A stretch of 30,765 bases of DNA, taken from Clostridia bacterium. GTDB lineage: Bacteria > Bacillota_A > Clostridia > Christensenellales > Aristaeellaceae. Numbering within the stretch: position 1 is the stretch's first letter; every line of letters begins with the position of its first letter. The notes under the pieces are model-generated. The model did not search any database. It had not been told where the DNA came from and saw only the letters and a list, made by a program, of their open reading frames with translations. Made by a program: the position numbers and the translations under genes. The stretch spans positions 1 through 30,765 of the forward strand of contig JAFQIF010000044.1 in NCBI GenBank assembly GCA_017397695.1, written 5' to 3'. Below are positions 1,940-19,811 of this stretch, in pieces.

Positions 1940-2455
1940 TTACTTCGCAGCAGCAACAGCCTTCTCCAGCGCTTTGAGCTGATCGTTGATGTAGATGGTG
2001 CAGCCGGAGGTCAGGTCGGCGTCGGTCGGCTTGCCGTCCGGGCCAAAGGCCATGCCCAGCACCTCAGCCGGGGTCTTGCCCACGCACCAGGCCTCCAGGG
2101 CGTCCATCTGCTCATACCACTCCTTGCCGATCGGGGAAATGGCCTTCATGCCGTAAGCGTCGCCCAGCTCAGCCTTGGTCTGCGGCGCAGCGTTCACCTC
2201 GCCGGCGATGGCGCCGGTGGCGTCGAAGCCAGCCTTGGACTCGATGATGTCGAAATCGACGGCAACAAACTTGCCCGCGTCGTCCAGGGTCACGGCGCAC
2301 ATGGTGGTGGTCACGGTCACGGAGCCGGCCGCATCAGCGGTCGCAGCAGCGGCGGACACAGCGGTGGTAGAGCCCACGCCGGTGGCCGCCAGGGCAGAGG
2401 TCGCCAGCGCCATCATCAGGGCGCACAGCAGGGCTGCAGTCAGGATCTTCTTCAT
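1940..2455 (-). CDS. Secreted FMN-binding-like protein, paralogue 1
   Basis: A 171-residue exported protein. The start at 2455 is chosen because AAGGAG lies 10 bases upstream and MKKILTAALL opens a clean signal peptide cleaving near residue 23; the open frame extends further upstream without a ribosome site. The mature part resembles an FMN_bind domain: VTLDDAGKFVAVDFDI is the 'G-K-[IF]-V-x-V' beta segment. Near the C-terminus DLTSGCT (D147 to T153) fits the D-x2-S-G-[AC]-T signature whose threonine carries covalent FMN in RnfG/NqrC-type domains. It is strongly similar to the next gene (TTMCAVTLDD, YGMKA, IGKEW and ALEAWCVGKT are shared). There is no lipobox, so it should be released or wall-associated. 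A role in extracellular electron transfer or flavin carriage is inferred; flavin attachment is unproven. Confidence 0.75.
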   Translation of the reverse strand: MKKILTAALLCALMMALATSALAATGVGSTTAVSAAAATADAAGSVTVTTTMCAVTLDDAGKFVAVDFDIIESKAGFDATGAIAGEVNAAPQTKAELGDAYGMKAISPIGKEWYEQMDALEAWCVGKTPAEVLGMAFGPDGKPTDADLTSGCTIYINDQLKALEKAVAAAK

Positions 2456-2520: not shown

Positions 2521-2552
2521 AGAATAGCTTTCATTTATGTCAAAAGTATGGC
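2521..2552 (-). promoter_or_regulatory. Direct-repeat activator-type promoter of paralogue 1
   Basis: On the minus strand, GCCATA (2552-2547) and GACATA (2541-2536) repeat with an 11-base period. Nine bases follow, then TATTCT (2526-2521) as the -10. There is no correctly placed -35. This matches the layout of OmpR/PhoB-class activated promoters and recurs before the next two genes. The upstream side is AT-rich. Confidence 0.6.
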
Positions 2553-2643
2553 TTTTTTTCAAATTAGACAACATTTTGTTTTATTCTGCGGAATTTATGT
2601 CCTCTTACACATCGCATTTATATTTATCTATGCATAGATACGA

Positions 2644-2673
2644 CAAAGGGACTTCCTTGCGGAAGTCCCTTTG
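2644..2673. terminator. Strong hairpin downstream of paralogue 2
   Basis: A 13-base perfect stem (2644-2656 with 2661-2673) and a TTGC loop, placed between the stop of paralogue 2 and the promoter of paralogue 1. The T-run on the minus strand after the stem is weak, so termination efficiency is uncertain. Confidence 0.55.
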
Positions 2674-2708
2674 CCGTAGAGAAAAGAAAAAGAAGAAGGT
2701 TGTCGATA

Positions 2709-3239
2709 TTACTTCGCGACAGCCGCAGCCTTCTGCAGGGCCGCCAGGTAGTCGCCCACAGTGATGGTGACGCCGGTCTTCAGATCAGCCTCATCCGGAA
2801 CCATGGTGTGGCTGCCGTCGCCGCGGTCGAAGGTCTGCATCGCGCAAACTTCGGCAACGGTCTTGCCCACGCACCAGGCCTCCAGGGCCTCGGCCTGCTC
2901 AAACCACTCCTTGCCGATGGAAGAAACAGCCTTCATGCCGTAGCCTTCCTTCAGCTCCTTCTTGGTCTGCGGAGCGGCGTTGATGTCGCCGGAAGCAGCG
3001 CCGGTGGCGTCGAAGGCGGCCTTCGGCTGCACGACGTCGAACTGAACGGCCACGATCTTGCCCTCGTCATCCAGGGTGACGGCGCACATGGTGGTGTTGA
3101 CGCTCACGTTGCCGGCGGCATCGCCAGCCGGGGTCAGCTTCACGGAAGTCACGGAGCCCAGGCCGGTAGCAGCCATGGCGGTGGTGGCGATGGCCAGCAG
3201 CAGGGCGGTCATCAGCGCAACAGTCAGAATCTTCTTCAT
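2709..3239 (-). CDS. Secreted FMN-binding-like protein, paralogue 2
   Basis: A 176-residue exported protein, closely related to its downstream neighbour and probably a tandem duplicate. The start at 3239 follows AAAGGAGAG at good spacing; MKKILTVALM begins the signal peptide (cleavage near AMA-A, residue 23). The core shows VTLDDEGKIVAVQFDV, then AAPQTKKEL, YGMKAVSSIGKEW and ALEAWCVGKT. The flavinylation-like motif is DLKTGVT (D152 to T158), with serine replaced by threonine and alanine by valine; the key aspartate and threonine remain. Two cysteines (in TTMCAV and EAWCVG) are shared with paralogue 1. The gene has its own direct-repeat promoter and is followed by a hairpin, so it is a single-gene unit. 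Function is inferred as for paralogue 1. Confidence 0.75.
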   Translation of the reverse strand: MKKILTVALMTALLLAIATTAMAATGLGSVTSVKLTPAGDAAGNVSVNTTMCAVTLDDEGKIVAVQFDVVQPKAAFDATGAASGDINAAPQTKKELKEGYGMKAVSSIGKEWFEQAEALEAWCVGKTVAEVCAMQTFDRGDGSHTMVPDEADLKTGVTITVGDYLAALQKAAAVAK

Positions 3240-3297
3240 GTGGATACTCTCCTTTTTTGTTTTCCCGCATCTCGTCAGAGATCGGTCATTGCATTTA

Positions 3298-3329
3298 AAT
3301 ATATCGATCAATTGTGGCAAAAGTATGGC
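3298..3329 (-). promoter_or_regulatory. Direct-repeat activator-type promoter of paralogue 2
   Basis: Minus strand: GCCATA (3329-3324), then GCCACA (3318-3313), 11-base period; nine bases; TATATT (3303-3298) as -10. Same geometry as at 2521 and 3989. Confidence 0.6.
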
Positions 3330-3382
3330 TTTCGGCATATATTTATCGATCTTTTTAAATTTTCAAATCCGTCTTTATATTT

Positions 3383-3411
3383 AAAAAGAGCTTCCGGATT
3401 TCCGGAAGCTC
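3383..3411 (-). terminator. Intrinsic terminator of paralogue 3
   Basis: GAGCTTCCGGA (3388-3398) pairs with TCCGGAAGCTC (3401-3411). On the minus strand the stem is followed by TTTTT (3387-3383). Confidence 0.75.
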
Positions 3412-3428
3412 CATAAAGAGATTTTCGA

Positions 3429-3935
3429 TTACTTCGCAGCCTTGGCAGCCTCGATGATGCCGTTGACATAGCCCAGGGTATCCACCAGGGTGCAGCCGGA
3501 AACAGCGTCAACCATCGCGGCGGCGTCCTTGCCGGCAACCTCAGCCTCGAGCTCGGCCACGGTCTTGCCGGTAACGAAAGCCTCAATGGCGGCGTAGTTG
3601 TCCATCAGATGGATGGTAGAACCGGCAGCGGCCATGTTGGTGCTGTACGCATCCGCATTGACCTTCTTGGAAGCGAGAACCTTGCCCTCCGGGAAAGCGG
3701 TGCCGAAATCAGCCTCGCTGTTCGGAACGCCGACAGAACCGGCAGCCATGAACTGATACTCGTCGATGTAGGCGTCGGCGATGACGTCACCCTGCATGGC
3801 AACGGTCATCACGGCGAAGCACTTGGTGCCGTGGGCAGCATACTGCACCTGGCCGATCTTGATCTCGCCCTCAGCAGCGGCAATGGACATGGTGAGCACG
3901 AGCAACGCGAGCGCGACAAGCAGAACCTTCTTCAT
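3429..3935 (-). CDS. Secreted FMN-binding-like protein, paralogue 3
   Basis: A 168-residue exported protein with a signal peptide (MKKVLLVALALLVLTM; cleavage near AAA-EG, residues 20-22). The ribosome site AAGGAG precedes the start. It is more divergent than paralogues 1 and 2: an early beta segment (QYAAHGTKCFAVMTVAMQGDVIADAYIDEYQ) is followed by a helical stretch and NYAAIEAFVTGKTVAELEAEV, then DAVSGCT (D143 to T149). The last motif is a near-exact match to the DAVSGAT flavinylation signature of RnfG/NqrC-type FMN_bind domains, with alanine changed to cysteine. Promoter geometry is shared with the two genes downstream, and it has a dedicated terminator. A soluble extracellular flavoprotein is the best reading; enzymatic or carrier function is not visible. 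Confidence 0.72.
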   Translation of the reverse strand: MKKVLLVALALLVLTMSIAAAEGEIKIGQVQYAAHGTKCFAVMTVAMQGDVIADAYIDEYQFMAAGSVGVPNSEADFGTAFPEGKVLASKKVNADAYSTNMAAAGSTIHLMDNYAAIEAFVTGKTVAELEAEVAGKDAAAMVDAVSGCTLVDTLGYVNGIIEAAKAAK

Positions 3936-3988
3936 ACAAACATATCTCCTTTTCTTGTTTTGCCTGTATTCAGGCTTTTCTGGCGCTC

Positions 3989-4020
3989 AGTATATCGGCC
4001 ATTTATGGCAAATGTATGGC
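3989..4020 (-). promoter_or_regulatory. Direct-repeat activator-type promoter of paralogue 3
   Basis: Minus strand: GCCATA (4020-4015) and an identical GCCATA (4009-4004) with an 11-base period; nine bases; TATACT (3994-3989). The clearest of the three copies, since both half-repeats are perfect. Confidence 0.65.
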
Positions 4021-4050
4021 TTTTTGAGAAATTATTGTCTTTCTGCAAAA

Positions 4051-4074
4051 GAATCCCCGCATAGGCGGGGATTC
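4051..4074 (-). terminator. Intrinsic terminator of the two-domain FMN-binding-like gene
   Basis: GAATCCCCGC (4051-4060) pairs with GCGGGGATTC (4065-4074) around a four-base loop. The minus strand continues with TTTTGC. Confidence 0.75.
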
Positions 4075-4088
4075 GTGCGATTTTGTTG

Positions 4089-4892
4089 TCAATCCAGCCG
4101 GTATGCATGGCGGCCCAGCGCATCCCAGATGGCGGAGATCACCTTCGGCGCACGGATCGTCGCGCCGGAGAAGACGTCCGCATCCGGTGCAATCGCGCCC
4201 GGCCTGTACAGATCGTTGACCGCGCTGATGGGCTTGCCCACCAGATAGTCCAGCAGCGCCTGGAACTGGCCTGCCACCTGTCCGACCAGCGCAGAGGCGT
4301 CCGGCGAAAGATAGTCCTCTCCCTTGTACTGCAGCGTTCTGTATGCAATCTCCAGGAACGTATTGTCCTTGATCGCAAATTCCAGCGCCACCTCTTCTCC
4401 GCCGTCCTCCATATAGCTGCCGCGATACGTGCCGTCGGCATAGCTTTCGGCCATGGGCAGCTTGGTGGTATCCACAAGCTTGTAGGGATGGCGGTTGAGG
4501 CCGTCCCACAGGGCAGAAATCAGCTTGGAGGACTGCATCGTTGCGGTCGTAACCGCATCCACATCGTCCACGATATCATATGGGCTGTAGAGATCGTCGA
4601 TCGCCTCCACGCCCTTGCCCACCAGGTAATCGGCCAGCTGCTGATACTGGCGCAGCGTCGCCTTCTGCGCGTCGCTGGCGTCCTCGATCATGTAGTCGCC
4701 GTCCTTGTATTTAACGCCGCGGTACACGATGGAATCGAACACGGCGTTGCGAATTTCAAACTGAATGGCGATCTGCTCAATGCCGCCGTCATAATAAAAG
4801 CCGCGGTAAATGCCGTCGGCATACGGCTGCTGCGCCATCGCCGCCGATGCCATCAGCAGCAGCGCCGCTGCGGCAAGCGCAATTCTCTTCAT
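4089..4892 (-). CDS. Secreted protein with two FMN-binding-like domains, paralogue 4
   Basis: A 267-residue exported protein (signal peptide MKRIALAAAALLLMASAAMA, residues 1-20). It holds two tandem FMN_bind-like repeats. Repeat 1 starts YADGIYRGFYYDGG (about 24-135) and repeat 2 starts YADGTYRGSYMEDGG (about 151-265). Each has the opening D-G-x-Y-x-G of the family, a middle (Y-K-[DG]-[GE]-[DE]-Y) segment, a YLVGK helix, and the terminal flavinylation-like motif: DAVTTAT (D112-T118) and DVFSGAT (D239-T245). The second is canonical. The ribosome site is AAGGAA. It lacks the GCCATA repeat promoter of its three neighbours and is divergent from the two-component system. The tandem domains suggest a multi-flavin carrier protein. 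An ApbE-type flavin transferase would be required but is not in this window. Confidence 0.8.
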   Translation of the reverse strand: MKRIALAAAALLLMASAAMAQQPYADGIYRGFYYDGGIEQIAIQFEIRNAVFDSIVYRGVKYKDGDYMIEDASDAQKATLRQYQQLADYLVGKGVEAIDDLYSPYDIVDDVDAVTTATMQSSKLISALWDGLNRHPYKLVDTTKLPMAESYADGTYRGSYMEDGGEEVALEFAIKDNTFLEIAYRTLQYKGEDYLSPDASALVGQVAGQFQALLDYLVGKPISAVNDLYRPGAIAPDADVFSGATIRAPKVISAIWDALGRHAYRLD

Positions 4893-4985
4893 CTGCGTTC
4901 ATTCCTTCCGTATCTGAAATTATGCCCGACCCGATTGCGCCTGCACATGCGCCGCAATCTTTCCTCAAATTCATTTGCGAATAAA

Positions 4986-5014
4986 TTGACATTCATCGTT
5001 CTATATTTTACAAT
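4986..5014 (+). promoter_or_regulatory. Sigma-A promoter of the two-component operon
   Basis: TTGACA (4986-4991), 17 bases, TACAAT (5009-5014). It lies in the divergent region between the two-domain secreted protein and the response regulator. Confidence 0.75.
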
Positions 5015-5072
5015 AAAATAGTGCATAGATCAACCGGTTGATTTTGCCGCATGATGAAACGGAGGAATATGC

Positions 5073-5756
5073 TTGAACCCCATCCTGATTGTCGACGACA
5101 ACGAGCAAATCCTGAAGATTCTCACGCCATATATTGAAAAGGAAGGCTGGCCCTATCTGACAGCGCGCTCCGGCGAGGAAGCGCTCTCTCTCTTTGACGC
5201 CGCCTCTCCCTCTCTGATCCTGCTGGATATCATGCTTCCGGGAATAGACGGCCTGGAGGTTTGCCGCCGCATCCGCCAGGTATCCAATATCCCGATCCTG
5301 ATGATTACCGCCAAAGACGAGGACGCAGACCGCATTCTCGGCCTGGATATCGGCGCAGACGACTATATTGTCAAGCCGTTTTCTCCGGGCGAGGTCATGG
5401 CGCGTATCCGCGCCGTCAGCCGCCGGATTCCCGCGCAGGGCGGCAGCGAGACGCTGGTCATCGGCAGCCTGTCCATCCACCTGCCCTCTCTGAGCGTATC
5501 GCTGGACGGACACAAGCTCAGCCTTACCCGCAAGGAGACCGAACTGCTCTACACGCTGGCCGCTGCGCCGGGGCGCGTATTCACTCGCGACAACCTGCTC
5601 ACGCTGGTATGGGGCTACGAGCATGTCGGCAATTACCGCGCGGTTGATTCCCACATCAAGCGCCTGCGCCAGAAGCTGGACGCCTATCCGCACGATTTTT
5701 TCAATATCGCCACGGTCTGGGGCACGGGATACAAGTTTGAGAGGACGCTGCCGTGA
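5073..5756 (+). CDS. OmpR/PhoB-family response regulator
   Basis: DNA-binding response regulator of 227 residues, normal for the family. The receiver domain (1-120) has the acidic pair D8-D9, phosphoacceptor D52 in LLDIMLPGIDG, T79 in MITAKDE and K101 in YIVKPF. The C-terminal winged helix (about 130-225) includes LTRKETELLYTLA, VFTRDNLLTLVWGY, RAVDSHIKRLRQKL and the closing GTGYKFE. The start is a TTG at 5073: GGAGGA (5061-5066) is correctly spaced and the nearby ATG at 5069 is out of frame. Its stop overlaps the kinase start. OmpR/PhoB proteins bind direct repeats of about 11 bases, just what precedes the three secreted-protein genes at 2521-4020, so these are its candidate targets (inference). 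Confidence 0.96.
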   Translation: MNPILIVDDNEQILKILTPYIEKEGWPYLTARSGEEALSLFDAASPSLILLDIMLPGIDGLEVCRRIRQVSNIPILMITAKDEDADRILGLDIGADDYIVKPFSPGEVMARIRAVSRRIPAQGGSETLVIGSLSIHLPSLSVSLDGHKLSLTRKETELLYTLAAAPGRVFTRDNLLTLVWGYEHVGNYRAVDSHIKRLRQKLDAYPHDFFNIATVWGTGYKFERTLP

Positions 5757-7228
5757 GCCATCGCATTCGTCTGTTCCGCTCCATCACATGGCGGCTGATG
5801 CGCCTGTTTGCGCTGCTGCTGATCGTCTTCACGCTTATCGTCGGCCTTCTGTACAACAGCCTGATGCGCCGTCAGACGATCGCCCATTACAGCCAGACCA
5901 TGCAGCGCGACGCGCATGCCATCGCGCAGAATCTTTCCGAGTGGATCGCCCCCTCGCAATACGAGAATCTGGACGATACGCGCTTCGTCGTCAGCGATGA
6001 TACGCTGGCGCCGTATCTGGCCTTTATCGAGCAGCTGACGGGCAGCACGGTCTATATCGTGGATACCCATCACAACGTAACCGGCTACTTCAGCGGCGTC
6101 GTACAGACCATCTCCAAGCCGCTGCTGCCCAGCTATCTGGAGCAGAGCATTGCGCTGGGCTTCATGGGCAAAACGCCCTTCATCCAGGCGCAGATCGACG
6201 GCGAAACCCACCTGACCACCTCCATGCCGGTGATGAACGCCAGAAGCCGGGTGCTGGGCGTGGTGCTGCTTACCTCTACCCTGCGCGAGCAGGGCTACAC
6301 GCAGGTTCCCAGCGCAACCATTCTGCTCAACAGCCTGCTGTTTTCCTTCCCGCTGGCGGTGCTGCTGTCCTTCCTCTTTTCCAGCATGTTCACGCGTCCC
6401 ATCGCCAAGCTGCAGCAGGTGTCGCTTTCCCTGGCGGACGGCCAGTACAAAACACGTACCCGTATCGATTCCGGCGATGAAATCGGCTCTCTGGCGCACT
6501 CTATGGATATCCTGGCCGAGCGCCTGGATCAGGCGCGCGAGCGCGACGAGCAGCTGCGCACGCAGCAGCAAATCTTCTTTTCCAATATCTCTCACGAGCT
6601 GAAGACGCCCGTCACGGTGATCCGCGGCTCGCTGGAAGCGCTGAACGACGGCGTCATCCGCGGCGAAGAGAATACGCGCGCCTATTACGCGCAGATGATC
6701 ACCGAAAGCCGCTGGCTGCAGCGCCTGATTCAGGATCTGCTGGAGCTGTCCCGGCTGCAGAATCTGGAGTTTTCGCTGAACATGGGCGAAGTGGACCTGA
6801 CCGAGCTGCTGGGCGACGTCGCCATGAGCGCCAGCTCTCTTTGTGAGCGCAAGGGCATCGTCTTCTCCTGTGAGGAGCCAGCCAGGCGCTTCACGCTCGA
6901 GGGCGATTACACGCGCCTGCGGCAGATGCTGCTTGCGGTCATCGATAATTCCGTCAAATTCACCCCTGCCGGCCGCCACATCCGCCTGAGCCTTCTACCC
7001 GACAGGCCCACGATCATCATCGCCGACGAAGGCATCGGCATTGCGCCGGATGAAATCGGTCACATTTTCGACCGCTTCCGTCACACGCACGACGCTTCCC
7101 GCGAAAGCACCGGCCTGGGCCTTGCGATCGTACAGGAGATCGCACGCAGGCATGGCGTCACCATCGACGTAGCCAGCTACGAAGGCAAGGGCACAACATT
7201 CTCCTTTGTTTTCCCCGATCAAGCATAA
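5753..7228 (+). CDS. Sensor histidine kinase
   Basis: Membrane sensor kinase of 491 residues partnered with the preceding regulator. It starts with GTG at 5753, overlapping the regulator's TGA by four bases, which implies translational coupling. Layout: TM1 about 15-35; an extracellular sensor of about 150 residues; TM2 about 188-213; HAMP about 212-265; a HisKA domain with the H-box SHELKTP (H281); then the HATPase_c domain with N-box DNSVKFTP, G1 DEGIGIA, F-box FDRFRH and G2 STGLGLAIV. All catalytic motifs are intact. The sensor domain shows no known ligand motif. It should phosphorylate the adjacent OmpR-type regulator. The stop codon lies in a bidirectional terminator. Confidence 0.96.
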   Translation: MSHRIRLFRSITWRLMRLFALLLIVFTLIVGLLYNSLMRRQTIAHYSQTMQRDAHAIAQNLSEWIAPSQYENLDDTRFVVSDDTLAPYLAFIEQLTGSTVYIVDTHHNVTGYFSGVVQTISKPLLPSYLEQSIALGFMGKTPFIQAQIDGETHLTTSMPVMNARSRVLGVVLLTSTLREQGYTQVPSATILLNSLLFSFPLAVLLSFLFSSMFTRPIAKLQQVSLSLADGQYKTRTRIDSGDEIGSLAHSMDILAERLDQARERDEQLRTQQQIFFSNISHELKTPVTVIRGSLEALNDGVIRGEENTRAYYAQMITESRWLQRLIQDLLELSRLQNLEFSLNMGEVDLTELLGDVAMSASSLCERKGIVFSCEEPARRFTLEGDYTRLRQMLLAVIDNSVKFTPAGRHIRLSLLPDRPTIIIADEGIGIAPDEIGHIFDRFRHTHDASRESTGLGLAIVQEIARRHGVTIDVASYEGKGTTFSFVFPDQA

Positions 7229-16480: not shown

Positions 16481-16485
16481 TCGTG

Positions 16486-19400
16486 TTACAGCAGCTGTTT
16501 ATGCATCATCGCGCCCTGATGCGCGCAGTCGATGGCAAGCGCAGCGCTAAAGCACTTTTCGGCACGCTGCCTATCGCCCAGGCCATAGCTGCCCAGGGCA
16601 ATCAGATACTCACAGTGCGCCCGATTGCGCACGGACAGGTCCTCCTCAAAGAGCTGAAGATCCGGCAGCGACACGGCAAAGTAATCGATCGTCACCTTGT
16701 CGTAATAGTGCTTCTCGCCGTAGGCAATCAGCTTATGGAATCGGGCGCTCGCCCGCGCCTCGTCGCCAAGCGCACGCGCGGCCAGACCCTGATAGAGGAT
16801 CATCTCCGCAGGCTGGTCGTTGTAATACATGGCGCTGGCCGGCTCCTCATCGCCGCTGGCTGCACGGGCAAGGTGCGCGGCGGCAGCTTCTTCATTCCCC
16901 ATCATGCGCTCGCACAGGCCGAGATAATAGTAGATATTGTTGTCCTTCGCGCCCTCGAGCTTACCCTCGCCCAGGTTATGCGGAAAGACGAGCGCACGCT
17001 CCAGCAGCACTTTGGCTTTCGCCGCTTCGCCAGCCGCCATGGCTCTGCGCGCCAGCTGCGTCAGCGCTGCGGCATACTGCGTGGTCACCTTGCCTTCGCC
17101 GCCCTCCCACGGATGGAAGCGGCGCGCCATGATGATGTCCAGCGCCTCCTCATAGCGTTCCAGGCTATTGAGCAGCGCACAGTATTCGATCGTCAGATCG
17201 TCGCGCACGAACACAACGTCTCTGCGGGCATCCAGGAAGGCAAAGCGCTCAACGATGGGCATATTCAGCTTGCGGTAAAGCTGATCGAGCTCCAGCAGCA
17301 CGCGCGCGTCGGTTTCATCCAGGTGGTAGGCGCGCTCAAGGCATTCGCGCGCTTTCTCCGGCCTGCTCTGCTTGTTGTAATACGCCAGCGCCAGGTTGCG
17401 CCATACCGTCGGGAAAGAACCGTCCATCCGCGCGCTCGTTTCCCACATATCGGCGGCAAGCGTATACTGACGCTTATCATACCACAGGCAGCCGAGGTAA
17501 TACGGCGCTTTAGCGTCTGCCGGATGATGGGCAAGCGCGTGCTCAAGCGCGGCAATATCCTCCAGTCTGTTGGGGAAGCAATACAGGCTCGGGCGCTTCG
17601 CCGCATCCAGCAGCGCCTCCCCGGCCAGCGCTTCATCGTATTTTCCGGCATAGAGCGCCTTGTGATAGGCGAGCATCGGGCTGGAATCCCTGCACAGATC
17701 GAGCACGGCAACGGCCCTGCGATAGAAGCCCGCCTCGGCATAGTCGATCGCGCACTCGATATAGCTGCTGGCGCGATCGCCCATAAGCCTGAGCGCACAA
17801 TCGATATCTCCGGATTCAATACAGGAGACATAATCAAACGCATCCAGTTCCAGATTCTGCGCATACCAGCGCTCCGCCTCGCCGCAGCGGCCCAGCTCGC
17901 CAAGAATCATGCCGCGCAGTGCGCGCGCCTTGAGATTGTGATAGTTCTTCACGAGACTGCGGTCGATATGCTCCAGCGCCAGGCGGTATTCCCCGCGCCT
18001 GCAGTCGATGGCAGACAGATAATAGAAGCCTGCTTCCTGCTCGGCAGCCGTCCAGGTCGCCTTGTAAAATGCGTCGTATGCCTCATCATCCCGGCCCTGA
18101 TACAGCAGGGAAAGGCCAAGATTCAAATGTGCCTCTCCGGTATATGGATTGGGATTGCGGTCCGTCAGGCGATCGATGGCCGCGCGGAAATACGGTTCAC
18201 TCTTCCCAAAAAGGCCGCGGCGCAGCAGCAGCTGACCATAGGCAATGTTTGCGCGGCTGTCGCCGGGATCGCGCTTCAGCGCTTCCAGATAATACGCATC
18301 AGGCAGATACGTCGCATGGCGGTACTGCTCGATGTGCAGGCCCGTCAGATACAGCTCCTCGTTCGTCAGAATCTCATGCGGCAGCTTCGCTGCAGGCGCA
18401 GGATCGGGAATACGCTCAATCTTCTTTTCCGCCGGCGCATAGTCAAGCATCTTCCTGCCGCGGCAGTCATACACGGCCAGCACAAGCGCCGTTTCGTCCA
18501 CATCGGTATTCACATCGGCGCGCAGCACATCCACCGGGCTGAGGATCGTCGTCCTGTCGAAAAGCACGCTGTCCTTTGCCGTCAGCACCACGCGCGCATC
18601 CTTGTACACGCCCGTCGCGTATACGGTAATCCTCGCTGCGCCATCCTGCTTTTCCAGGTTGAGCACGATCTCGCTGCTGGCGTTTTTGGCATAACCCGCC
18701 GCCTTGTAGGGCATGAAGTACTGGGTGAAGGTCTTCTCCTCGAAGGGCTTCAGCCACGTAAAGTCCGGCTGATTATCGCAGAACATGCCGGTCATCAGCT
18801 CGATATACGGGCCGTTTGCATCGGTCAGGTTTCGGTCCCATGCCTGGCCGAAATCGCCGTTTCCCCAGGTCCACTGCTTCTTGCCCGGGGATACATGATG
18901 ATCCGCAATATGCAGAATGCCTGCATCCACGCCGTAGTCGTAGCCGCCCACAAAGTTATAATCGCTATGTGCGCACATGTAGCTTGTGGGCACGGGGATG
19001 TTGCGGTAACGGGAGATATCTACGCCCGCGCCGTAGTCGTGCTTGTAATACACGCCCGTGGCAATCGGGAAGGTGGACACGTCGCGCTTGCCGTGGTCAA
19101 ACACGGCCGTCACGTCCGGCGGGAAGACGCTCTGCGTGTTGTCGTTCACCGCCACAGCGGGATTGGCCCACCACAGGAACGTCTGCGGGAGGCTGGTACG
19201 GTTATACAGCTGGCCCTTGATCTCGATATACGCCCTGTCCGGATAGACGGTAAAGGTCATCTTTCCCTTCGTGCCATACATCTGATCGACCTCGGAGAGC
19301 TCCACCGAACAGCTGCCGTCCTCGTTTTCCGTGATTCTCCAGTCGGTCGGGCCGTAGGTGGTCGGGCGGTGATGCTGCGGCCAGTTGAACTCGATACCGC

Positions 19401-19749
19401 CGGAAATCCACGGACCGGTCAGGCCCACCAGCGCCGGCTTGATCACCTCGTTATAGTATACGAAGTCGTAGCCGTTGGTCTTGTCATAGGCGCGCTGAAT
19501 ACGGCCGCCCAGTTCCGGCAGCACCATCACGCGGATGTAGTCGTTCTCCAGCCATATGCTCGTATAGGGCTGGTCGGTCTTCTCATCCAGGATCTTATCC
19601 ACCACGGGCAGCGGATAGACCTTGCCGCTGGAGCCCTGATACACGCGCTTTTCCAGGAACATGGGGTTCTTGTCCGGCTTGCCGATGCCGTAAGTGGGCA
19701 GGGTAATGCGCTCAACCCACACTTCGGCTTTGCCCTGAACATGCTTCAT
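16486..19749 (-). CDS. DUF5107 domain protein with TPR repeats
   Basis: A 1087-residue protein with no signal peptide, so cytoplasmic. The start is the ATG at 19749 with GGAGGT at 19757-19762; a GTG one codon earlier is closer to the site. The N-terminal half (about 20-400) fits DUF5107. It contains VMVLPELGGRIQRAYDKTNG, a segment like the galactose-mutarotase-type beta-sandwich, and GGIEFNWPQHHRPTTYGP. The C-terminal ~600 residues are helical repeats of TPR type (AHLNLGLSLLYQGRDDEAYDAFYKA; PYYLGCLWYDKRQYTLAADMWE; AYYNKQSRPEKARECLERAY). Family members often lie near sugar-utilisation genes, so binding or processing of a carbohydrate is plausible; no catalytic residue is proven. A hairpin separates it from the YczE-like gene upstream, so it may be partly independent. 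Confidence 0.88.
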   Translation of the reverse strand: MKHVQGKAEVWVERITLPTYGIGKPDKNPMFLEKRVYQGSSGKVYPLPVVDKILDEKTDQPYTSIWLENDYIRVMVLPELGGRIQRAYDKTNGYDFVYYNEVIKPALVGLTGPWISGGIEFNWPQHHRPTTYGPTDWRITENEDGSCSVELSEVDQMYGTKGKMTFTVYPDRAYIEIKGQLYNRTSLPQTFLWWANPAVAVNDNTQSVFPPDVTAVFDHGKRDVSTFPIATGVYYKHDYGAGVDISRYRNIPVPTSYMCAHSDYNFVGGYDYGVDAGILHIADHHVSPGKKQWTWGNGDFGQAWDRNLTDANGPYIELMTGMFCDNQPDFTWLKPFEEKTFTQYFMPYKAAGYAKNASSEIVLNLEKQDGAARITVYATGVYKDARVVLTAKDSVLFDRTTILSPVDVLRADVNTDVDETALVLAVYDCRGRKMLDYAPAEKKIERIPDPAPAAKLPHEILTNEELYLTGLHIEQYRHATYLPDAYYLEALKRDPGDSRANIAYGQLLLRRGLFGKSEPYFRAAIDRLTDRNPNPYTGEAHLNLGLSLLYQGRDDEAYDAFYKATWTAAEQEAGFYYLSAIDCRRGEYRLALEHIDRSLVKNYHNLKARALRGMILGELGRCGEAERWYAQNLELDAFDYVSCIESGDIDCALRLMGDRASSYIECAIDYAEAGFYRRAVAVLDLCRDSSPMLAYHKALYAGKYDEALAGEALLDAAKRPSLYCFPNRLEDIAALEHALAHHPADAKAPYYLGCLWYDKRQYTLAADMWETSARMDGSFPTVWRNLALAYYNKQSRPEKARECLERAYHLDETDARVLLELDQLYRKLNMPIVERFAFLDARRDVVFVRDDLTIEYCALLNSLERYEEALDIIMARRFHPWEGGEGKVTTQYAAALTQLARRAMAAGEAAKAKVLLERALVFPHNLGEGKLEGAKDNNIYYYLGLCERMMGNEEAAAAHLARAASGDEEPASAMYYNDQPAEMILYQGLAARALGDEARASARFHKLIAYGEKHYYDKVTIDYFAVSLPDLQLFEEDLSVRNRAHCEYLIALGSYGLGDRQRAEKCFSAALAIDCAHQGAMMHKQLL

Positions 19750-19774
19750 CACGTATACCTCCCTGCTGTAAAAG

Positions 19775-19799
19775 AGCCGGTCGGGTACTCCGGCCGGCT
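19775..19799 (-). terminator. Hairpin between YczE-like and DUF5107 genes
   Basis: AGCCGGTCGG (19775-19784) pairs with CCGGCCGGCT (19790-19799). On the minus strand it is followed by CTTTTAC. It would end or attenuate transcription from the YczE-like gene. Confidence 0.6.
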
Positions 19800-19811
19800 T
19801 GATTGACGGAA

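Follow-up and report, generated by a model that had tools for sequence, protein, structure and literature searches.

In a 30,765-nucleotide stretch of DNA from a Clostridia bacterium (contig JAFQIF010000044.1; hereafter the window), four minus-strand genes, g1 to g4, adjoin a plus-strand gene pair encoding an OmpR/PhoB-type response regulator and a sensor histidine kinase. Upstream of g1, g2 and g3 lies the same element, a direct repeat of two six-base half-sites (GMCAYA) on an 11-base-pair (bp) period, with a minus-10 sequence nine bases further on. Judging from sequence comparison with related genomes, which we refer to by G numbers (and their loci by L numbers), these elements are very likely operators of the neighboring regulator, at class II promoters that it would activate.

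An earlier reading of the same DNA (the original prediction) had placed these repeats on the minus strand at 2552-2521, 3329-3298 and 4020-3989, each followed by TATWYT after exactly nine bases. Searching the window with GCCATA-N5-GMCAYA-N9-TATWYT returned exactly these three sites with zero mismatches, which bears out the nine-base distance at each of them, and there were still three matches when two mismatches were allowed. The shuffled expectation is 0.00, and three matches were reached in none of 100 shuffles. Between the first base of the repeat and the start codon there are 97 (g1), 90 (g2) and 85 (g3) nucleotides. The predicted lack of a minus-35 element was confirmed as well: with spacers of 15-19 bases none was found at the three sites, where the best hexamers match TTGACA at 2, 2 and 3 of 6 positions. 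The regulator also starts 181 bases from the fourth gene, as predicted (regulator at 5073, g4 at 4892). The sites are not recent promoter duplications, since they are 73-81% identical over a 37-base core and 20-33% identical in their flanks. No operator was found upstream of g4 in the window.

To follow the element in relatives, we used a comparison set of 300 genomes from the family of relative G001. A kinase orthologous to that of the window is encoded in 19 of them (61-82% identity), the next matches being at ≤40%. A wider scan of contigs with the kinase gave at least 80 loci, and among the 80 kept only L001-L003 are near orthologues. The window and the regions around the kinase in the 19 genomes make up 281,150 bases (some contigs stop nearby). 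We scanned both strands of this kinase-locus set for the exact repeat GCCAYA-N5-GMCAYA, demanding no minus-10 and applying no gene filter. Each of the 23 copies precedes a g1-g4 homologue and is correctly oriented toward it, and TA...T stands at nine bases in all 23. Allowing one mismatch gave 38 copies, 33 before g1-g4 homologues and five elsewhere; TA...T stands at nine bases in 30 of the former versus none of the latter. The exceptions among the 33 are L159:9056 (CAGAAT) and two extra registers in L163, where three repeats stand in 11-bp register. These counts come from a rescan without an earlier site display filter, which had dropped mismatched sites inside mechanically called frames, including L153:11452 and L159:9056.

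With the whole layout, GMCAYA-N5-GMCAYA-N9-TANNNT, and at most one mismatch, the kinase-locus set contains 32 sites, every one of which precedes a g1-g4 homologue (g2, 10; g4, 10; g3, 6; g1, 6) at a distance of 58-107 nucleotides, apart from one at 293. In 10 of the 19 relatives, the g4 homologue has an operator in front. A profile was built from 29 sites of the window and 16 relatives, omitting any site with at least two mismatches as well as the two extra registers of L163. The direct repeat with an 11-bp period, as expected of an OmpR/PhoB-type operator, runs through all 29, which align gap-free. Their consensus is AAAAA-GCCAYA-C(T/A)TTT-GMCAYA-AA(T), with TAnnnT nine bases past the second half-site, and the logo shows that the conserved element is longer than first described, with an A-tract and CWTTT between the half-sites. 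The PHO box of the Pho regulon ends about ten bases before the minus-10. With their fixed minus-10 distance, and with no minus-35 at the three window sites, the promoters look by sequence like class II PhoB-like promoters.

The distribution of the element follows the orthologous kinase. The original prediction had proposed a genome-wide search for its pattern. Run exactly on the 300 relatives, that search gave six matches (none for a reversed-pattern control): four at the orthologous locus (G241, G119, G003 and G138), two immediately before the gene of another OmpR-type regulator, ~48% identical (G236 and G215), and none elsewhere. With the 29-site profile at E ≤ 1e-3, a site was present in 17 of the 19 kinase-positive and 7 of the 281 kinase-negative genomes, under filters stricter than those of the 19-genome profile scan described below, so that weak matches were lost. 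At E ≤ 1e-5, a cut picked after the fact, the counts are 15 of 19 and 0 of 281. A generalized pattern gave 12 of 19 versus 0 of 281 when exact, and 15 of 19 versus 6 of 281 with one mismatch, for which the reversed control was positive in 3 of 300 genomes. These comparisons support the predicted regulatory link to the neighboring regulator. The further claim, that the regulon is dedicated to this regulator, fared less evenly: the sites do follow the kinase, but the layout is shared by OmpR paralogues and so is not unique to it.

The same contrast appears when genes rather than sites are the starting point. Among the best 30 g2-family loci, out of matches in 82 genomes, a site with at most two mismatches precedes the gene in 13 of 15 kinase-positive genomes versus 0 of 15 genomes without the orthologous kinase, for which the best candidate has three mismatches. 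The two kinase-positive g2-family genes without a site (G270 and G028) follow a g4 that has one, and three of the 13 positive sites (G241, G235 and G129) are of a GACACA type with low profile scores.

Some targets lie away from the kinase. The profile scan of the 19 genomes at E ≤ 1e-3 gave 34 matches, of which 31 are on the kinase contig. The other three (G119, G168 and G235) stand 86-104 nucleotides before a gene for a protein of 556-558 amino acids; both complete copies that were scanned contain an FMN_bind domain, and the G168 copy is cut by the contig end. Ten genomes have this large FMN_bind gene. Weaker repeats occupy the same place in G274, G001, G002, G129 and G241, and no repeat was found before the gene in G270 and G222. 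In G241, the large FMN_bind gene lies together with a g2 copy and the gene of a paralogous OmpR regulator (L239, contig G241:C126, 2454-7461). Each of the three has a GACA-type repeat in front, as though a sister regulator had taken over part of the regulon.

We also examined the paralogous regulators themselves, taking the best 30 loci (L241-L270) out of matches in 207 genomes to a regulator from G236. Within 170 bases before the conserved N-terminal motif, GMCAYA-N5-GMCAYA-N9-TANNNT precedes the regulator's own gene with at most three mismatches in 28 of the 30 loci (26 with at most two, 19 with at most one), while 0 of 471 random stretches from the same loci have the layout. The loci were chosen by protein similarity, although three of the genomes (G236, G203 and G267) had first come up via the DNA pattern. 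The repeat of these loci is often GMCACA-N5-GACAAA-N9-TAnnnT and looks autoregulatory. The recognition helices of the window regulator and the paralogue are alike, R(A/T)VD(S/T)HIKR(L/I)R. Among 11 loci picked by protein alone around kinase paralogues of 34-40% identity (L110-L120), a one-mismatch site precedes the regulator or its divergent neighbor in three (L112, L113 and L119), and the other eight have none; no g1-g4 homologues were found within these short loci. Separately, two genomes without the orthologous kinase carry the repeat with a minus-10 before genes for DUF2202 proteins (G066 and G110; DUF2202 loci with the repeat are L179, 1501-2258, and L231, 850-1532), which suggests that a sister two-component system controls another exported protein family.

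Several observations weigh against assigning the sites to the neighboring regulator. The profile and the generalized pattern were trained on kinase-locus sites, and their enrichment is therefore partly circular; the first pattern and the g2-family comparison are less exposed to this. The g2-family contrast is somewhat weakened because the kinase-negative homologues are more distant (48-55% identity versus 57-89%) and because two of them (L296 and L299) are part of larger open frames, so that the 400-base stretch that was searched could be coding sequence. Two kinase-positive genomes show no site: G154, whose contig ends ~175 bases before the regulator, and G259, whose contig ends inside g4. 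Conversely, seven kinase-negative genomes have a site at E ≤ 1e-3. In G074 the gene behind it is a g3 homologue (79%) and the contig is short, so the kinase may be missing from the assembly. In G066 and G110 the site is the one before the DUF2202 genes, in G236 it precedes an OmpR gene, in G120 an exported-looking protein without Pfam match, in G224 a 444-codon frame and in G136 a contig end. Off-locus matches with at most one mismatch in kinase-positive genomes number 22 versus 21 in the reversed-pattern control, so most of these loose matches are probably chance. Of the 22, 14 were inspected with their surroundings (L165-L178): L165-L167 precede the large FMN_bind gene, L168 and L176 precede OmpR regulator genes, and the remaining nine, located ahead of unrelated genes or within genes at profile scores below 18, were taken as chance. 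No site lies between g4 and the regulator in the window, which therefore gives no indication of autoregulation; the corresponding region is likewise siteless in L146-L149, L151 and L156. Finally, the proteins of the 30 paralogue loci are 83-100% identical, and the 28 positive loci therefore represent few independent events. The layout before the paralogues supports an operator of the OmpR family, and for the same reason the paralogues could share the sites.

That last point leads to an alternative in which the elements are a class of OmpR-type operators bound mainly by a different, paralogous regulator, and the linkage to kinase and regulator reflects gene order rather than regulation. The paralogue of ~48% identity has the same layout before itself and a similar recognition helix, and GACACA-type sites share a contig with a paralogous regulator (48-51%) in G241, before the large FMN_bind gene and the g2 copy, and in G129, before the large gene. 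Yet 207 of the 300 genomes encode a regulator that matches the paralogue at E ≤ 1e-70, whereas the strong sites (E ≤ 1e-5) keep to genomes with the orthologous kinase, and the paralogue sites differ in sequence, often with GACAAA in the second half. We consider this alternative improbable.

Could the repeat and the minus-10 instead form one block recognized by an alternative sigma factor, with no activator? The fixed nine-base spacing to TA...T in all 23 exact repeats would fit such a block. However, the half-sites form a genuine direct repeat with an 11-bp period, three units being in register in L163, the minus-10 is an ordinary one of the TATAAT type, the layout also occurs before OmpR regulator genes and follows the kinase, and no sigma factor was found among 24 window proteins scanned with Pfam, all of which makes this explanation very improbable. 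Functionless leftovers of tandem gene duplication, or chance, have a still smaller, nearly negligible probability. In favor of this, g1 and g2 are paralogues that lie in tandem, but the core stands out from diverged flanks, it is conserved down to 61% kinase identity, unlinked targets exist, and shuffled sequence is expected to yield no such sites.

Binding of the regulator and activation at the sites thus remain the reading that we favor. We infer activation rather than repression because the minus-35 is missing and the spacing is fixed. The kinase would phosphorylate the regulator, two monomers of which would occupy the GMCAYA half-sites, spaced by 11 bp, in head-to-tail order. With the minus-10 as reference, these half-sites lie at about -38 to -22, where they would stand in for the minus-35, and the bound regulator would recruit RNA polymerase to the TATWYT minus-10. 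The genes switched on in this way would be g1-g3, joined in relatives by g4 and the gene of the unlinked FMN_bind protein. The most likely function would be to deploy a set of exported FMN_bind-like redox proteins in answer to an extracellular cue.

The coordinates of the sites and genes are listed below.

Operator-promoters and genes of the locus, with positions in the window.
Feature	Position	Strand	Description
g1 operator-promoter	2521..2557	-	A-tract, GCCATA-N5-GACATA, nine bases, minus-10 TATTCT
g2 operator-promoter	3298..3334	-	GCCATA-N5-GCCACA, nine bases, minus-10 TATATT
g3 operator-promoter	3989..4025	-	GCCATA-N5-GCCATA, nine bases, minus-10 TATACT
g1	1940..2455	-	171 amino acids; signal-peptide-like N terminus by eye; g2 paralogue, 64% identical
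g2	2709..3239	-	176 amino acids; signal-peptide-like N terminus by eye; no Pfam match
g3	3429..3935	-	168 amino acids; signal-peptide-like N terminus by eye; no Pfam match; SGCT near C terminus
g4	4089..4892	-	267 amino acids; FMN_bind at Pfam cut-off; one SGAT by eye
OmpR/PhoB-type response regulator	5073..5756	+	Receiver and Trans_reg_C domains; TTG start
Sensor histidine kinase	5753..7228	+	HAMP, HisKA and HATPase_c domains; start overlaps regulator stop

The assignment of the regulator to the OmpR/PhoB type follows from its Pfam domains, PF00072 (E = 6.2e-30) and then PF00486 (E = 3e-24). The named best protein matches of the window belong to Candidatus Ventricola (Clostridia, Eubacteriales incertae sedis) or to Clostridia bacterium. 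Next to g1 lie genes for a DctP-type TRAP binding protein and a GntR/FCD regulator (2-679 and 986-1705), and homologues of both are also found near the cluster in L146-L149 and L153. Elsewhere in the window, two long open frames stand opposite each other, one of 1107 codons on the plus strand (16483-19806), without Pfam match, and one of 1088 codons on the minus strand.

The original prediction called the gene products secreted flavoproteins. The g1, g2 and g3 proteins are small and probably exported, but the flavin part of the label is weaker for them than first written. A Pfam scan of g1, g2 and g3 gave no match, FMN_bind included, and the strict [S/T]GA[S/T] attachment motif was found in 0 of 33 g1/g2 homologues, which have TGCT-like motifs instead, with the Thr invariant in all 33. 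In g4, FMN_bind (PF04205) scores 22 bits against a cut-off of 22, that is, just at the threshold. For g1-g3, flavin binding is a candidate property.

We also looked for distant homology. A g1/g2 profile aligned with a C-terminal domain of the FMN_bind-bearing 556-amino-acid protein (hhalign, E = 5e-7, probability 92%), which identifies g2 as a predicted distant relative of domains in that protein. Against solved sequences, the profile had a weak match to 2kzx (E = 0.066), whose SGAT aligns with the invariant-Thr region. A single-sequence model of g2 was dropped (predicted local distance difference test score of 47.5), and an alignment-based model was used instead. Foldseek found no match to the latter at E ≤ 0.001, and the absence of any chain named FMN_bind from its further listing proves nothing. 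In the 556-amino-acid protein of G119, the Pfam FMN_bind domain matches domain 1 of the solved CbFMN4 (8p2b, E = 7.6e-15). ApbE is encoded in 18 of the 19 kinase-positive genomes and also in 7 of 14 control genomes.

These results provide a two-component regulon with a defined, testable operator for an unstudied, uncultured gut-type group of Clostridia, and tie FMN_bind-like proteins to a dedicated sensor. Related genomes can be searched for the operator with its built-in minus-10, so that OmpR-type regulators can be matched to their targets by sequence, and the sister systems form a ready-made series in which to study how response-regulator specificity changes. A broader and rather doubtful proposal is that one operator grammar, GMCAYA-N5-GMCAYA-N9-TAnnnT, may serve a group of OmpR paralogues in the family, with small changes in the half-site setting the regulator and exported redox genes being rewired between sister systems by shifts in that code; the branch represented by the window would then be a sensor of an electron acceptor, or of redox state, outside the cell and would deploy a relay of exported flavin proteins. 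Among the matches listed for open-licence articles in PubMed Central, none described two-component control of FMN_bind proteins in these bacteria, and in the accessible text of PMC8238504 'two-component' appears in a reference title only. The architecture is already known; the regulon, the operator code and the sister systems are new.

The closest known layout is that of the Pho regulon (PhoB in E. coli, PhoP in B. subtilis). According to the portions available to us, the PHO box consists of two direct repeats of 11-nucleotide units (PMC4415409), and in a model the PhoB and sigma sites overlap the -35 region (PMC3348028). Both systems thus have 11-nucleotide direct repeats at the minus-35 place, an OmpR/PhoB-type regulator and an ordinary minus-10. 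They differ in the half-site, which is GMCAYA here and CTGTCAT in the PHO box, and in the targets, which here are g1-g4 (FMN_bind-like) rather than phosphate genes; phosphate is not an indicated signal. With neither the CTGTCAT consensus nor phosphate-gene targets, the locus does not belong to the Pho regulon. ArcA sites of E. coli are likewise direct repeats, 11 bp from center to center and often three or more in number, according to the portion of PMC3798270 available, and one relative here (L163) has three repeats in register. ArcA, however, regulates globally in response to redox and has many sites, whose architecture varies, whereas the sites described here are few, strong and mostly local, with a fixed minus-10 distance. 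As for the targets, the accessible parts of PMC8238504 and PMC10339131 describe ApbE-flavinylated FMN_bind and multi-flavinylated proteins. Although g1-g3 have no Pfam match, and the g1/g2 homologues carry TGCT-like rather than strict attachment motifs, the system resembles these in the large protein of G119, in g4 at the FMN_bind cut-off and in the presence of ApbE in nearly all kinase-positive genomes.

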